DNA of 64,000 bases. Source: Bdellovibrionales bacterium. Lineage in GTDB: Bacteria > Bdellovibrionota > Bdellovibrionia > Bdellovibrionales > UBA1609. The notes beneath the pieces were generated by a model. That model worked only from the letters and a program-made list of their open reading frames with translations, was not told the DNA's origin and did no database searches. The DNA lies in the NCBI GenBank assembly GCA_019637855.1, contig JAHBUX010000001.1, forward strand, positions 333,337 to 397,336, read 5' to 3'. Position numbers and translations under genes: made by a program. Below, piece by piece: positions 37,150 to 43,915 of the stretch. Numbering within the stretch: position 1 is the first letter of the stretch; the number at the start of each line of letters is the position of its first letter.

Positions 37150-37593
37150 ATGCTTCAACTCATGCGCCGGCTTGCCCTGCTCCTGATCTTACCGCTGATG
37201 GTGGCGCCGGCACTTGCAACTGCCAAAGCTAAGACAACCAAATCACATAAGACCACGAGCTCTAAAAAAGCCAAAAAGCCCACCAAAGCGAAAACGACCG
37301 CCGGCAAAGTGAAGAGCGATATGGAATCACGCGCGTTGATCCGCAAAAAAGCTCCCCTCTACTTCAAGCAGGCGGAACGCACAGAGATCGTACGCATCAA
37401 TAAGGACGGCACTTTCTCTCTTGAGGGAGAATTAGGTGCTACTTCACGCGGCTCCTGGCGCGTGAAGCAAGGGAAGATCGTGCTTAAATGGACCACCGGT
37501 GAAGAGCACGGCTATAAAGTCACCTTCGCGGGGACCACTCCCGTAGTCGAAGGCACCAAGGCCAACAAAGCTGGCCAATACATTCTTAATTAA
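37150..37593 (+). CDS. Small exported Lys-rich protein
   Basis: A 147-aa protein with a signal peptide (MLQLMRRLALLLILPLMVAPALA) and a Lys/Thr/Ser/Ala-rich low-complexity region (~26-60). The rest is a small beta domain with a lipocalin-like turn (VRINKDGTFSLEGELGATSRGSWRV, IVLKWTTGEEHGYKV). The start could also be the ATG at 37162. Its TAA overlaps the stop of convergent mltG in a shared TTAA. Confidence 0.6.
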   Translation: MLQLMRRLALLLILPLMVAPALATAKAKTTKSHKTTSSKKAKKPTKAKTTAGKVKSDMESRALIRKKAPLYFKQAERTEIVRINKDGTFSLEGELGATSRGSWRVKQGKIVLKWTTGEEHGYKVTFAGTTPVVEGTKANKAGQYILN

Positions 37594-38660
37594 TTGCTAG
37601 TTGTGCTCGCAGGAGTCTTGTTGAGATCGCGCCAGCTTTTACCTTCGCGGGCGGCGGGATCAAGCTGAAAGCTCTTTACGGCCTTCAAATGCTCATCATA
37701 ACTGCGAGTGAATACATGGGTGCCGTTGTTGCGACTTACGAAATACAGATACTCGCTATTGGCGGGCATCATCACCGCCGCCAAAGCTTCGCGACCGGGG
37801 TTGGCGATAGGGCCCCACGGCAAACGCGGCACCGTGTAGGTGTTGTAACGAGTCGCGCGCGTGATGTCCTCTTTACTGATGTTCTGTTTATAAGAGCCGG
37901 TGTCGACCCAGATGCCATAGATGATAGTGGGATCACTCTGCAGCTTCATGTTCTTGCGCAAACGATTGTAAAACACGGAGGCAATCATGGGACGCTCTTC
38001 GGCCGCGCCAGTTTCTTTTTCAACAATACTCGCTAAGGTCACCAGCTCGTGGCGCGACAACGGCGGCGACTGACCGCGCGACTTCAACTGCGCCTCGACA
38101 TGTGAGTACGCGGTTTTGAAATTGCCCACCATCTGAGCCAAAAGGTCCTTCAGCGGCGTGTAACGTGTCACATTGTAAGTCTCAGGGAACAAGTAGCCTT
38201 CTAAGCTCGACACTTCCACACCTAGAAGTTCCTGAATGATCTTCTTATCCTTAACCGCCTTCAAAAACTCTTCACCCTTGAAGATGCCCTTAGAATTCAG
38301 CACTGCCGCCATATCATAGACGTTGCTTCCTTCAGGGAAGGTGATGGGGTACTGAATGCTTTTGCCAGAAACCAAAAGGCCGAGAATTTCTTGGGGAGTC
38401 ATGCCTTTGTTCAAAGCATACTCGCCATGCTTAAGCCGGCCGCCTTGCCCAGTAGCTTTCGCTAACACTCGCAGTTTGAACGCATCGCTGATCAATCCCT
38501 TGTCTTGAAGGTCTTGAGCAACACGACGGAAGGGAACCCCGGTGGGAACTTCAAACACCAACTGCTCTTCGGCTTTGCCCGGACCCGATGAAAGAAAGCG
38601 AAACGCTTCGAACCCGGCTCCGGCTAAGGCAATCACCAAGATTGCCGCTATAAACTTCAT
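37590..38660 (-). CDS. mltG: Endolytic transglycosylase MltG
   Basis: A 356-aa inner-membrane enzyme that cuts nascent peptidoglycan strands. It has an N-terminal helix (FIAAILVIALAGAGFEAF), a LysM-like region, and the catalytic YceG domain with LEGYLFPETY (~154-162) and the catalytic Glu in SIVEKETG (Glu ~214). The ATG at 38660 (AAGAG upstream) is preferred; an in-frame TTG at 38684 would overlap the previous gene. It is the last gene of the AST-type cluster, an unusual position, and probably has its own role. Confidence 0.92.
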   Translation of the reverse strand: MKFIAAILVIALAGAGFEAFRFLSSGPGKAEEQLVFEVPTGVPFRRVAQDLQDKGLISDAFKLRVLAKATGQGGRLKHGEYALNKGMTPQEILGLLVSGKSIQYPITFPEGSNVYDMAAVLNSKGIFKGEEFLKAVKDKKIIQELLGVEVSSLEGYLFPETYNVTRYTPLKDLLAQMVGNFKTAYSHVEAQLKSRGQSPPLSRHELVTLASIVEKETGAAEERPMIASVFYNRLRKNMKLQSDPTIIYGIWVDTGSYKQNISKEDITRATRYNTYTVPRLPWGPIANPGREALAAVMMPANSEYLYFVSRNNGTHVFTRSYDEHLKAVKSFQLDPAAREGKSWRDLNKTPASTTSN

Positions 38661-38667
38661 CACGCTC

Positions 38668-40185
38668 TTAGTCCTTGAACTCAAAGTTCAATCCCGGAGG
38701 CATACCTTGCCCGGTGTACGGGGTCGGGTCCTCCAAACTGCTGAGGGGCACGGTGCAGTACTGAACCGCATAGTGCGCGCTTGGACGATCGTTGCCAGAC
38801 TTATTCATCCCGCCAAAGGGCAGGCGCGAACTGGCGCCGTTCGTCGTACGATTTAAGTTCAACACACCCACCTGGGCCTCGATCAATGCTTTTTCGTAAA
38901 GGGCTCGACTTTTGGTGAAGAGACTCATGACTAGACCAAAGCCGGAGGAGTTGTTAATTGCCAATGCTTCTTCGAAGTCGTCCACTGTGAAGATCGCGAC
39001 GTTAGGCCCAAAAATCTCACTCTTCTGATAGACCGACTTGGGATCAAATTTCTCGACCAAATTGATACTGGGGGTAACGTAGTAACCGTCATGATCCAGA
39101 CTTAAGGCCTTACCGCGCATCAGTGATTCGGCCCCTTCGCGCTTGGCGATCTCCTGATAGCGAATGTATTTATCCACCGAATCGGAGCTGATCAAAGGAC
39201 CCATGAACACGTTCTCGCGCCAATGACCGATGCTCAGCTTTTTGGCGTTGGCATAGAACTGCTCGACAAAAGCGTCTTTAACCTTACGATGCAGGATAAT
39301 ACGGCTGGTGCATGAGCAACGTTGGCCGGCACTCATAAAAGAGCCGATCATGCTTTCGTACACAGCCTTCTTCATATCCGCATCGTCCCACACCACCGTG
39401 GCGTTCTTGCCGCCCATCTCTAGCGCGAGAATTTTGTTGGCGTGAGTGAGTGTGTCTTGCTTGATCTTCAAACCGACTTCATAAGAGCCGGTAAAGAGGA
39501 TGCCGTCCACGTCACTATGGTTGACCAAACGTTTGCCGGTCTCGACTTTACCTTGCAGCAGATTGAACACTCCCGGCGGGAAAGCTGCCTGCTCAAAACA
39601 CTGCGCCATCCACTGACCCACAGCCGGAGTTTTATCTGACGGCTTAAAGATAACCGTATTGCCCGTCGCCAAAGCCGGAATGATGTGCCCGTTGGGCAAG
39701 TGGGCCGGAAAGTTAAAGGGTCCCACCACAGCCATCACCCCGCGCGGCTTGTGTCGAGTGTAGCCGGTCACGCCAGGGAGCGCGTCTTTCAACTCTTCCT
39801 CAGCCACGATCTGCATCGAGTAGTTCAACGTGATGTCGATTTTGTTAATCAGAGCCGCGGCCTCGGTTTTCGATTCCCACAAAGGCTTACCCGTCTCACG
39901 CGCAATCAGCTCCGCCACCTCGGCACCGCGGGCTTGGAAAATCTCTTTCAAACGCATCAGGTACGCTTTGCGCTTTTCTGCCCCCAAGTGCGCCCAGGGT
40001 AAAAAAGCCTGGCGAGCCGCACTCACGGCGCGATCGACATTGTCGAACTTGGCGCTGGGTCGAATTACGATGTCTTTGAGATTTGCCGGTGAGGGAACTT
40101 CCCAGTCTTCATCGTTGTGCTCGATCAACTCAAAGCGTCCGTTGATAAAGTCACCGAGAAATTTAACCGTCTGCTCGCCGCTCAT
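38668..40185 (-). CDS. astD: Succinylglutamate semialdehyde dehydrogenase
   Basis: A 505-aa NAD-dependent aldehyde dehydrogenase. It has VVGPFNFPAHLPNGHI, the catalytic Glu in ALEMGGKN, and the nucleophilic Cys in SAGQRCSCTSR (~residue 287). The N-G-HI-P-A-L segment and the FGGMNKSGN end are characteristic of AstD. It oxidises N-succinylglutamate semialdehyde in arginine catabolism. It lies 9 nt after astA and 7 nt before mltG. Confidence 0.88.
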   Translation of the reverse strand: MSGEQTVKFLGDFINGRFELIEHNDEDWEVPSPANLKDIVIRPSAKFDNVDRAVSAARQAFLPWAHLGAEKRKAYLMRLKEIFQARGAEVAELIARETGKPLWESKTEAAALINKIDITLNYSMQIVAEEELKDALPGVTGYTRHKPRGVMAVVGPFNFPAHLPNGHIIPALATGNTVIFKPSDKTPAVGQWMAQCFEQAAFPPGVFNLLQGKVETGKRLVNHSDVDGILFTGSYEVGLKIKQDTLTHANKILALEMGGKNATVVWDDADMKKAVYESMIGSFMSAGQRCSCTSRIILHRKVKDAFVEQFYANAKKLSIGHWRENVFMGPLISSDSVDKYIRYQEIAKREGAESLMRGKALSLDHDGYYVTPSINLVEKFDPKSVYQKSEIFGPNVAIFTVDDFEEALAINNSSGFGLVMSLFTKSRALYEKALIEAQVGVLNLNRTTNGASSRLPFGGMNKSGNDRPSAHYAVQYCTVPLSSLEDPTPYTGQGMPPGLNFEFKD

Positions 40186-40194
40186 ACTCTCTCC

Positions 40195-41205
40195 TTAGGC
40201 CGGGGCCAGATGAATCTCTTCGCCGGCACTTAAGTCCAATAATTTCCAAGTTTTTTCAGGCAATGCGATCTCCGCGCCCTCGACGCGGAATGAACTCGCG
40301 CAACCCACGTAAGAACCATCACGACTCAGTCCAACAAGACCCGCGTGACCAAATTCACCACTGCCGCTCTTCAGTTTGAAGGTCTTCATATTTTTGATCA
40401 CCGTACACTCGGTGGTTTTGCAGCCCAAGTGAGGTCCGCCGTCGAACGGATCGACTTCCTCTTTGTAGGTGAAGCCAATGCGATTGAGCATATGCAGGGC
40501 GGCCTGAGTTTCATTACCCACGCGACCTAAAACCAAGCGCGCCTTCGAGTCCAGCAACGCCAAATAAATATCCTCTTCGGGGAAGAGGCTTTGAATGAAC
40601 CCATTGTTTTGACTGCTGAGTTGATCGGCTTCTTGATAAGGCATTCCCGTAAAACGACGACCTAAGGCTTCCCAAAATTCGCTGCGGCCTTCTTCTGTCA
40701 ACGGCGGCGCCATCTCGGAATGCAGGTCCGCTTCGAAACGATCTTGTTGCATGCCAATGTATAGAAACCGGCTGAGGCTGATCAAACGACCGACTTTCTC
40801 CGGACGGCGACGATAAGCACGATCGACCACCAATCCGCCCACTTCCGTAGGACCATCCGTATTGGCACGCAAACGCAGAATTTGATGAATGAAGCCAATG
40901 CCTAGCTCGCGGCTGAAACGCTCTTTCTTCATCACTTGAAAACTGAAATTTGGCGAATTCGGAGTGCCATTCTTAGCGAGGATCATTGAGCTACCGGTGA
41001 CCATATCGGCCTCCGTGTCCTCAACGACAAAGATATATTCGGCTTCAGCCTTACTTAACTCACCGGCAAAAGAGGCCTCGCTACGCTCCACCTTTTTTTC
41101 GATCGTACGTTTGTCGGCCGGCAAATTAAGCAGCGTGAACTGGCGAGCCAGCTCATAAAGCGCTTGGGAATCTTCGCGGCGAACCGCTCTAACTAAAAAG
41201 CTCAA
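40195..41205 (-). CDS. astA: Arginine N-succinyltransferase
   Basis: A 336-aa GNAT-like enzyme that succinylates arginine, first step of the AST pathway. The N-terminus LVRAVRREDSQALYELA and the segments FSFQVMKKERFSRELGIGFIHQI and EVGGLVVDRAYRRRPEKVGRLISLSR are AstA-typical. The start is a TTG whose TTGA overlaps the stop of the M20 gene; AAAGG lies 7 nt upstream. In some bacteria AstA acts on ornithine too. Confidence 0.88.
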   Translation of the reverse strand: MSFLVRAVRREDSQALYELARQFTLLNLPADKRTIEKKVERSEASFAGELSKAEAEYIFVVEDTEADMVTGSSMILAKNGTPNSPNFSFQVMKKERFSRELGIGFIHQILRLRANTDGPTEVGGLVVDRAYRRRPEKVGRLISLSRFLYIGMQQDRFEADLHSEMAPPLTEEGRSEFWEALGRRFTGMPYQEADQLSSQNNGFIQSLFPEEDIYLALLDSKARLVLGRVGNETQAALHMLNRIGFTYKEEVDPFDGGPHLGCKTTECTVIKNMKTFKLKSGSGEFGHAGLVGLSRDGSYVGCASSFRVEGAEIALPEKTWKLLDLSAGEEIHLAPA

Positions 41206-42545
41206 AAACAAAACCTTTCGATCATCTGTCGATAAAAACCGACGGCGGTTTTTAAATCGCTGATCCGCACATTCTCGTTTGGAGCATGCGAATTGCCAAC
41301 ACTTTGCCCCGGGCCCCACACCAGACATTCAACGCCCATACGGGTGAAAACATTGGCCTCGGAACTCACCGCCATCTTGTGCAGGGATGAGTTTAACCCC
41401 ATCGTGTGTAGAATGTCTTGCGTGCCCTGAGCAAAAGCAGTCTCGGGCGCCGTGGTAAAACCCTTACGGTAGTCTTTGACGCGAAATGTTGCTCCTACCG
41501 ACTGCACCGCGGCCGCCAACTTCTTCATCCAGCCTTCATAAATCGCATCGGTCACCGATGGCGGTAGGCGGCAGCTGCCAGTAATCCGAATCTCATCATT
41601 GGAGGTGCGGATATTGCCCAAGTTCATTGTGGGATGAGGCGGTTGAAAACCGTCCTCGCGAAAACCGCGCAGATCGCTTTCCAGCGCGCGCAGGCCTTCA
41701 TAAATGCGGGAAATTTTCGGCAGGATGGGATCTTTGAATCCAGCCACCATGTCGATCTCGAGCAAGGCGTGGGCGGGAACAGTATTGTAGTCGATCCCAC
41801 CATCTAAATCCATAACGGCAACACCGTCAGGCAAATGTGCCAGATACTCCATCATTTTCATGATAGCGTTCTCACCGAGCTTAGGATCTGAAGAGTGCGC
41901 GGCCTTGCCGGCAAACATTTTGCTCTGAGTGGACGTGGACTCGAGCAGATCATGATCTCGACGATAGATCTTCTCTTCTTCCGAATACGGAATATCGATC
42001 TCCACCACAGCCATACCAGTGCCGGCGTGCACGAGGCGCATATCGGTAGGCTCGCCAATCAAAGCTTGTGTGGCCTGCAGTTTTTTGCGCCGAATCAGTT
42101 TAATAGCGCCGGCCATCCCGTTTTGTGCACCAAACGTGGCCACCAAAACAAAAGGCATTTTCATCGGACGACCCACGAACGCCTTGATTGCTTCGAGTTT
42201 GCACAAGAAATCCAGCTTGGCATCGGCCGTACCAAGTCCATACATCACGTCATTGTAAATGCTGGCGTTAAACGGATTGCTCTGAGTCTGTGTCCACTGA
42301 CTGAAATGCCCGGCATGCACCGTATCCAAGTGAGTCTGCAACAAAAACTCACGCGCGGGCGTGTCCTTTTGTGGCCTTGCAATGACATTGCATTGCTCCA
42401 CACCTTCCAGCGCTTCGCGCTGATATTCGACGTGCAGCCCGGCCTCTTCGCACAGACTACCGACAAACTCGGCTGCGGAGAGATTGCCGTGACTGGGGGT
42501 ACTTTCCAGCGCCACCAACCGTCGGCAATGATCAAGAAAACTCAA
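41202..42545 (-). CDS. M20-family peptidase-like protein with altered catalytic Glu-Glu pair
   Basis: A 447-aa protein of the M20 family (ArgE/DapE/succinyl-diaminopimelate desuccinylase type). Metal ligands look intact: His72 in THLDTV, Asp108 in GTADAKLD, Glu165 in GEPTD and a C-terminal His in NSHAPNE. The usual EE (catalytic base and metal ligand) is AQ: residues 139-144 read GAQNGM. Both changes are one base away from Glu codons. It starts with a TTG overlapping the previous stop. The context suggests a desuccinylase step in arginine catabolism, replacing AstE; activity is doubtful if the AQ is correct. Confidence 0.8.
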   Translation of the reverse strand: MSFLDHCRRLVALESTPSHGNLSAAEFVGSLCEEAGLHVEYQREALEGVEQCNVIARPQKDTPAREFLLQTHLDTVHAGHFSQWTQTQSNPFNASIYNDVMYGLGTADAKLDFLCKLEAIKAFVGRPMKMPFVLVATFGAQNGMAGAIKLIRRKKLQATQALIGEPTDMRLVHAGTGMAVVEIDIPYSEEEKIYRRDHDLLESTSTQSKMFAGKAAHSSDPKLGENAIMKMMEYLAHLPDGVAVMDLDGGIDYNTVPAHALLEIDMVAGFKDPILPKISRIYEGLRALESDLRGFREDGFQPPHPTMNLGNIRTSNDEIRITGSCRLPPSVTDAIYEGWMKKLAAAVQSVGATFRVKDYRKGFTTAPETAFAQGTQDILHTMGLNSSLHKMAVSSEANVFTRMGVECLVWGPGQSVGNSHAPNENVRISDLKTAVGFYRQMIERFCF

Positions 42546-43915
42546 GCCAGCTCCAACACCGATTTCTCGATGATCTTCTTGGCCACCTGAATGTCCTTTG
42601 ACGTCACGATGGCGGGAATCAAGAAGCGAATACGATAGGGGTCACTGCCGCAACCAAAGCACATTAAACCGTTTTTATATAAAGACTTGAGCAAAGCCAA
42701 CTGCTTATCTTTGCTGCCATCCAACGGAGTTACAGCCACCATCAGGCCCATACCTCCGGCTTCACGCAAGAGTCCTTTGCACGTAGTGGTATTGAGTTCG
42801 TTCAGCATGCCGATGAACTCACGATGGATTTGCATGATTTTGCCGTCAGGACCTAAATAGCCCTCCTCTTCGATCATCTTTAGAATTTCCATACCGGCGC
42901 GCAACGCCGGAGTGGAACCCGAGAAGGTGCCGCCCAGCAAGCCCGGATCGGGCTTGAACTCGGGCGTAAACATCGTGGCCCCGTTCTGCGCCGTCTTAGC
43001 GATCGTGCAGATGTCGATGTATTCCGCAATGCCAAGAGTTTCAAAAGCAAAGAAATTGCCAGTGCGAGTGAAGGTTTGAATTTCGTCGGCCCAAATCGGA
43101 ATGCCCTGCGAACGACAGAACTCCAAAAGCGGAACGAAGAACTCGCGAGTGGCTGCGCGGTAACCACCCTCGCCGAGCATCGGCTCAAACATAAAGCAGC
43201 AAATGTTTTTGCCGTGCTTAGCCACATGCTCTTTCAGCACGTTTAGCGTTTTGTCGGGCGGATCGTTGGGGCTGTAAAACGGCAAACGCAAGACTTCGTC
43301 GTACTGGGGAATACCGACTTTGAAAGACGGATTGTCCGTGACTTCTGTCATCAACGTCGACCGACCGGCGAAAGCGTTTTTAAAGGTGATGATCATGCGC
43401 GCGCCCTTCATTTTCTGACGGGCAATTTTCAGCGCGCTTTCATTGGCCATGGTTCCGCAAGTGGCCAACCAAACGTGGCGCATACGGCTGTTCTTAGCCA
43501 CGATGCGACCGAGCTGCTCACTGAACTGAGCGTACTCGACGTTGGGCGCCAGGTTACCTTGCTGAACAACATCGCTCAGCGCGCCGCTCAAAGAGGCGCG
43601 CACGATACGCGGATGCGAATGACCGAATAGATGTACGCCGATACCATTGATCAAATCGAGTTTCACACTGCCGTCTTCGAGCTCCACATAAGGGCCGTTG
43701 CCCAAGCCTGAGCCCAGGTAGTTGTAAAACAACGGGCGACTGCGCACTTGCCCAATAGTTTGAATGTCCTTCGCCATTCCCGCTTCGCACGCGCTGTCCG
43801 GGCCTTTAACGCCGTCAATGCGTTTGCTGAATGACAAAACCTGTTCGACCAATCCATCCAAAAGCTGTGCTGTCTGCGCCGAATGGCGCATTTGTTGCCC
43901 GAGCGTTGAAGCCAT
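42542..43915 (-). CDS. Class III aminotransferase (ornithine/succinylornithine/lysine type)
   Basis: A 457-aa PLP enzyme starting at ATG 43915 with AGGG nine bases upstream; the frame extends further upstream into the divergent gene's region, which is not favoured. Visible elements: SGLGNGPYVELEDG, GIGVHLFGHSHPRIV, WADEIQTF with the PLP-contacting Asp, and CTIAKTAQNGA with the likely Schiff-base Lys. In this cluster it could act as AstC (succinylornithine transaminase), but L-lysine 6-aminotransferase is also possible. Confidence 0.8.
   Translation of the reverse strand: MASTLGQQMRHSAQTAQLLDGLVEQVLSFSKRIDGVKGPDSACEAGMAKDIQTIGQVRSRPLFYNYLGSGLGNGPYVELEDGSVKLDLINGIGVHLFGHSHPRIVRASLSGALSDVVQQGNLAPNVEYAQFSEQLGRIVAKNSRMRHVWLATCGTMANESALKIARQKMKGARMIITFKNAFAGRSTLMTEVTDNPSFKVGIPQYDEVLRLPFYSPNDPPDKTLNVLKEHVAKHGKNICCFMFEPMLGEGGYRAATREFFVPLLEFCRSQGIPIWADEIQTFTRTGNFFAFETLGIAEYIDICTIAKTAQNGATMFTPEFKPDPGLLGGTFSGSTPALRAGMEILKMIEEEGYLGPDGKIMQIHREFIGMLNELNTTTCKGLLREAGGMGLMVAVTPLDGSKDKQLALLKSLYKNGLMCFGCGSDPYRIRFLIPAIVTSKDIQVAKKIIEKSVLELA

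Follow-up and report, generated by a model that had tools for sequence, protein, structure and literature searches.

Organization of the locus

The window, by which we mean the whole stretch of 64,000 nucleotides analysed, carries a syntenic block on its minus strand, in which the gene of an M20-family protein lies between those of a class III aminotransferase and an AstA-family acyltransferase (Table 1). The start codon of the aminotransferase was our choice within a longer open reading frame, and the last gene of the block is one that we take to be MltG, a cell-wall gene. TTGA overlaps join the aminotransferase stop to the M20 start (42545-42542) and the M20 stop to the probable AstA start (41205-41202), and suggest that translation is coupled across the operon. 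Wherever genes of the block occur together, their order is identical in the loci read. The MltG-like gene is found after the dehydrogenase in nearly all loci that extend that far.

Table 1. Genes of the block and positions of interest in the M20-family protein (window coordinates).
Feature	Coordinates	Strand	Remarks
Class III aminotransferase	42542..43915	minus	opens the block; TTGA overlap with M20 start
M20-family protein (ArgE/DapE-like)	41202..42545	minus	447 aa; Ala140-Gln141 in place of the catalytic Glu pair
AstA-family acyltransferase	40195..41205	minus	probable start TTG at 41205; overlaps M20 stop
AstD-like aldehyde dehydrogenase	38668..40185	minus	
MltG-like gene	37590..38684	minus	closes the syntenic block
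His72, Zn1 ligand position, intact	42330..42332	minus	ArgE and orthologue alignments
Asp108, bridging metal ligand position, intact	42222..42224	minus	ArgE and orthologue alignments
Codons GCA CAA (Ala140 Gln141)	42123..42128	minus	place of general base and Zn2 ligand; ArgE alignment
Glu165, Zn1 ligand position, intact	42051..42053	minus	ArgE and orthologue alignments
Thr176	42018..42020	minus	Lys in catalytic relatives, HKG in ArgE; ArgE and family alignments
Stretch of residues 178-210	41916..42014	minus	about 26 aa longer than ArgE; E191 kept in 28/28 eroded proteins
Stretch of residues 239-294	41664..41831	minus	about 46 aa longer than ArgE; G250 and E263 kept in 28/28 eroded proteins
His420, Zn2 ligand position, intact	41286..41288	minus	ArgE and orthologue alignments

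The original prediction placed the M20 gene in an arginine succinyltransferase-type (AST) cluster. This name fits the acyltransferase, which matches the AstA family (PF04958) with 317.8 bits over a cut-off of 29.4. The cluster as a whole is AST-like only, since a search of the window genome gave no match to AstB or AstE, and three of its proteins stay below their NCBIfam cut-offs: the aminotransferase for AstC (104.1 against 609.95), the dehydrogenase for AstD (448.6 against 579.3) and the acyltransferase for AstA. Among 98 genomes searched, AstA is present in 86, AstB (PF04996) is above cut-off in 12, and AstE (PF04952) is present in 5, with no match in the other 93.

The catalytic site of the M20 protein

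The replacement of the catalytic Glu-Glu pair by Ala140-Gln141 was read correctly at the outset: the open reading frame has VLVATFGAQNGMAGA there, and these two residues align with Glu147-Glu148 of the 7rsf chain (E. coli ArgE), which would be E144-E145 of the enzyme if the crystallised chain carries three extra residues. The codons lie at 42128-42126 (GCA) and 42125-42123 (CAA), more than 10 bases from the 42138-42145 first given for the site. The place of the pair is fixed by the alignment to ArgE and by the GM..A motif beside it, which rules out a Glu-Glu elsewhere in the protein.

The other metal ligands are intact as predicted, with H72, D108, E165 and H420 matching the ArgE ligands in the 7rsf alignment. 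According to the available text of PMC11270798, H80, E169 and D112 of ArgE bind Zn1, and D112, E145 and H355 bind Zn2. The expectation that the fold is kept is borne out by Pfam profiles, both above cut-off: Peptidase_M20 (PF01546) with 73 bits (cut-off 24.6) and M20_dimer (PF07687) with 42.1 bits (cut-off 21). A single-sequence structure model reached a pLDDT of 37, and the fold assignment is thus by profile only. Classic di-zinc hydrolysis should fail, as first proposed, with the base and one Zn2 ligand gone in the alignment. The loss of this mechanism is well supported, and the protein is presumably without hydrolytic activity.

Furthermore, position 176 is Lys in 50/53 intact proteins (defined below) and in only 2/32 members of f1, the family of the window genome. 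Since K176 is mostly lost in f1, substrate handling has probably changed too.

Comparison with known enzymes

ArgE (N-acetylornithine deacetylase, M20; PDB 7rsf and 8uw6) is the best solved relative by sequence and the top NCBIfam match of the window protein. The two have in common the fold, by profile, the order of metal ligands, and the TEA-like and GPG...H...E motifs. They differ in the lost Glu pair and K176 and in the two longer stretches of Table 1, whose excess lengths come from local alignments to ArgE. The score against the ArgE profile TIGR01892, 149.4 bits, is half the equivalog cut-off of 297.7.

DapE (N-succinyl-diaminopimelate desuccinylase) has the M20 fold, removes succinyl groups and carries the same ligand set as the catalytic relatives. 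Its profile scores below ArgE for the window protein, which lacks DapE's catalytic Glu pair. In contrast with DapE, the operon neighbours here are presumably not lysine synthesis genes. AstE (succinylglutamate desuccinylase), which would complete the AST pathway as its final enzyme, belongs to another family and has a different fold from M20.

Pseudoproteases and other pseudoenzymes likewise keep the fold and the gene and lose catalytic residues. Literature searches, mostly made without opening the papers, recognised no M20 case in an amino-acid operon among pseudoenzyme or inactive M20, DapE and acetylornithine deacetylase reports, and nothing on this protein among those on Bdellovibrio arginine genes and the AST pathway.

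Spread of the loss among orthologues

The search of the window's own genome returned the M20 protein with a 100% match. Orthologues share the loss: the three congeners carry AQ (G001 and G003) or AE (G002) in place of Glu-Glu, which speaks against sequencing error. An M20 match is present in 75/98 genomes, with 32/47 in f1, and no internal stop was seen in any of the 75.

A class-wide search extended this to 118/143 genomes, the earlier matches included. We aligned 115 proteins, namely the 75, a very divergent copy in the operon place of G054, and 39 of the 43 newly found proteins, the four omitted being the partial copies of G098, G117, G135 and G139. The apparent split in G098 is a run of N and not a broken copy, and its Glu-Glu is intact. 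After two further partial rows (G045 and G105) were dropped, 113 proteins were counted at seven sites: H72, D74, D108, E140, E141, E165 and H420.

All seven sites are intact in 53/113 proteins. By family, this holds for 0/31 in f1, 40/59 in f8, 9/11 in f10, 1/5 in f5, 0/2 in f2, 0/1 in f6, 0/1 in f9, and 3/3 in the outgroup order f11. Intact proteins in the outgroup order make an ancestor intact at all seven sites probable. In terms of Glu-Glu alone, 78/113 proteins keep the pair, with only 3/31 in f1 (G034, G040 and G044), all of them without D108 and E165. At the level of sequence, then, the loss is not confined to the window protein and affects the whole family.

Among the 28 complete f1 members without Glu-Glu, 12 retain all five other sites, and in all of these the first Glu has become Ala. 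Elsewhere in f1 this position holds R, Q, P, G, K or N, with Glu still present in 7/31.

A conservative and recurrent change of the bridging Asp108 to Glu is found in otherwise intact f8 relatives (e.g. G053, G085, G125, G128 and G133). The PF01546 profile, applied at E 0.001, misses the cluster M20 proteins of G029 and G045, although both lie in the operon place. A scan of genome contigs gave three distant M20 loci, which served only as queries for scans of viral contigs, where no relative was confirmed.

Number of losses and absence of the gene

The operon tree was built by a quick method from the aminotransferase, the dehydrogenase and MltG, and the families come out as clades. If Glu-Glu is never regained, it implies 9 losses, and plain parsimony gives 3 changes; the corresponding figures on a second tree, which includes the outgroup order, are 10 and 5. 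These counts are rough, because the second tree, in disagreement with the first, puts G054 (f9) inside f1, and the inner forks of this family have little resolution. In the window lineage the loss was in place by the time of the genus ancestor at the latest, and probably dates to the ancestor of a larger set of genera.

Four lineages of the operon tree (G048; G052/G057/G062; G027; and a group of reduced genomes) lack the M20 gene itself and have AstA and other block genes. Calling it a core member of the cluster was therefore too strong, and the gene is not indispensable. These repeated absences argue for a role that is useful and non-essential. Where it is absent, the aminotransferase adjoins AstA in most loci read.

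The reverse situation, with AstA missing and the operon M20 kept, is seen in G018, G029, G050 and G056 (L076, L070, L058 and L061), representing three lineages. The retention of M20 in these four genomes means that AstA cannot be its sole partner.

Evolutionary rate and constraint

Tip rates were obtained from branch lengths fitted on the fixed operon tree for 66 genomes with all four proteins, after six partial or very divergent rows had been dropped. The M20 rate was scaled to the average of the aminotransferase and dehydrogenase rates, and 55/66 tips had long enough reference branches. The median relative rate is 1.48 in intact proteins (n=17), 1.62 in those that lack Glu-Glu and keep the other five sites (n=12), 1.76 in those with Glu-Glu kept and one other site lost (n=6), and 2.40 in more eroded ones (n=20). 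The window protein itself has a value of 0.99.

No rate rise was detectable between intact and Glu-Glu-less proteins (p = 0.77), a weak test with 17 and 12 tips, in which the choice of the second group by its five kept sites may favour slow proteins. As far as this test can tell, the M20 protein of the window lineage is selected as strongly as its catalytic relatives. More eroded copies evolve faster than intact ones (p = 0.0006), as relaxed selection predicts, and in those lineages plain decay is conceivable.

Compared with its three congeners, the window gene differs at 0.16-0.18 of second codon positions and at 0.59-0.69 of fourfold sites, the latter near saturation. Catalytic residues are lost, and fold and gene are kept under constraint, the combination that marks a pseudoenzyme.

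Sites that erode and sites that stay

We took 65 sites conserved in at least 97% of the 53 intact proteins and scored their retention in 28 eroded proteins, 19 of them from f1, leaving out G054, G045 and G105. The catalytic set has 8 sites, the seven above and H217 in the dimerisation domain, which was identified by its motif. On average these are retained at 0.51, against 0.78 for 49 other sites (shuffle p = 0.0003). A smaller version of the test points in the same direction (0.46 against 0.71, p = 0.0055), and its lowest retention is found at N395, K176, M340 and S219, none of them catalytic. Because the shuffles assume exchangeable sites and the sequences have a common history, the p values are guides.

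Both long stretches are nearly constant in length among relatives (32-34 and 55-61 residues). In the stretches 178-211 and 239-294, which were picked after their conserved residues had been seen, 8 sites are retained at 0.96 and 0.88 (p = 0.013). F211 aligns with ArgE and is thus not an insertion residue; without it, the 7 insertion sites average 0.90 (p = 0.035 compared with all sites, and 0.07 compared with the non-catalytic ones). N254, inside an insertion, is retained at just 0.57, and the 14 sites that every one of the 28 eroded proteins retains divide into 3 in the insertions and 11 outside. This hints only weakly at a special retention of the two clade-specific insertions, and the idea that they are the seat of a new role is weakened.

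In the same genomes, the neighbours keep their own conserved sites at 0.90 (aminotransferase), 0.87 (AstA) and 0.92 (dehydrogenase). What we take to be the PLP lysine of the aminotransferase is kept in 85/85 rows, and the presumed catalytic Cys and Glu of the dehydrogenase in 82/82 ungapped rows.

A kept protein without the classic chemistry

Judged from sequence, catalytic chemistry appears to have been given up in the whole of f1 and in scattered other lineages, in a pseudoenzyme pattern. We tentatively favour, at a little under even confidence, a reading in which the window protein is a pseudo-deacylase that selection maintains in some non-hydrolytic role, most likely as a structural or regulatory partner of the operon enzymes. 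Its ancestor, an M20 enzyme of the ArgE/DapE kind, would probably have taken an acyl group, perhaps succinyl, off its substrate as part of an AST-like route. The present protein lacks the Glu that served as general base (now Ala140), the Glu that was a Zn2 ligand (now Gln141) and the conserved Lys at 176. With the Zn1 set H72, D108 and E165 present, the protein may still bind one metal ion. Purifying selection would keep it full length, which implies a non-hydrolytic job, and contacts with the operon enzymes might involve the two clade-specific insertions near the dimerisation domain.

A wider version, which we consider possible and rather unlikely, is that the M20 deacylase of one order has repeatedly become a non-catalytic subunit that holds or regulates the operon enzymes. 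Its active site would be free to vary, other surfaces including the insertions would be fixed, and the job would predate the loss of catalysis.

The slow decay of a dispensable step is a serious alternative that we still judge unlikely. Deacylation would no longer be needed, residues would drift, gene loss would come next, and the window protein would represent an early stage. The four gene losses on the operon tree, the variation at all catalytic sites, the faster evolution of more eroded copies and the absence of K176 in 30/32 f1 members all fit this course. Against it, none of the 75 first matches has an internal stop, no acceleration is detectable in the Glu-Glu-less type relative to the catalytic one, congeners show constraint at second codon positions, and catalytic sites are lost more than other conserved sites.

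Improbable, in our view, is a protein that still hydrolyses by altered chemistry, with a one-zinc or other-metal site and another residue or the substrate as base. The Zn1 ligands present in the window protein and the 12/28 Glu-Glu-less f1 members with all five other sites would suit it. According to the available text of PMC4320195, the H355A variant of ArgE, with one Zn2 ligand removed, is 380-fold slower and not dead, but the same text names E144, the first Glu, as candidate general acid/base. In those 12 members this residue is always Ala, which is incapable as a base, and in f1 K176 is mostly lost as well.

It is very doubtful that the M20 coding sequence acts as a translational bridge, handing ribosomes from the aminotransferase to AstA with a product that has no role. 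Both TTGA overlaps and the gene order kept in the loci read would agree with it, but loci without the M20 gene mostly have the aminotransferase next to AstA, and the constraint falls on amino acids. Lastly, GCA and CAA are each one base from GAA, but sequencing error or a recent mutation is practically negligible for a loss common to three congeners and several other genera.

For the favoured pseudo-deacylase reading, the value of the locus lies in a graded natural series of one operon protein, from fully catalytic, through base alone lost and heavily eroded, to gene absent. As the series occurs in related genomes, the route from enzyme to pseudoenzyme, and whether a non-catalytic role comes first, can be tested directly. 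In terms of annotation, automatic ArgE or deacetylase labels, and pathway reconstructions that use them, are probably wrong for f1.

AstA active site and possible replacement enzymes

At residue 230 of the window AstA (40516-40518) the sequence is GRVGNETQ, against GQVHPRAQ in PDB 1yle. The 1yle-type His occurs among 85 aligned AstA rows only in G017, G032, G039 and G043, all without the M20 gene. In E. coli AstA, a His in this place carries an active-site annotation. A tie between this change and the M20 loss is ruled out, the missing His being order-wide.

AstE, without a match in the window genome, is rejected as a replacement there. In each of the five genomes of 98 that have it (G015, G018, G047, G056 and G059), the cluster M20 has lost one or more catalytic sites, a co-occurrence that is not significant by hand estimate. 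At least one PF01546 match, the cluster copy included and motifs disregarded, is present in 84/98 genomes. A second M20 protein is encoded in the window genome (L103:6547-7797; G000:C6:27867-28772); its motifs, including Glu-Glu, are intact by eye, and another M20 protein of this kind might replace the catalysis in trans.
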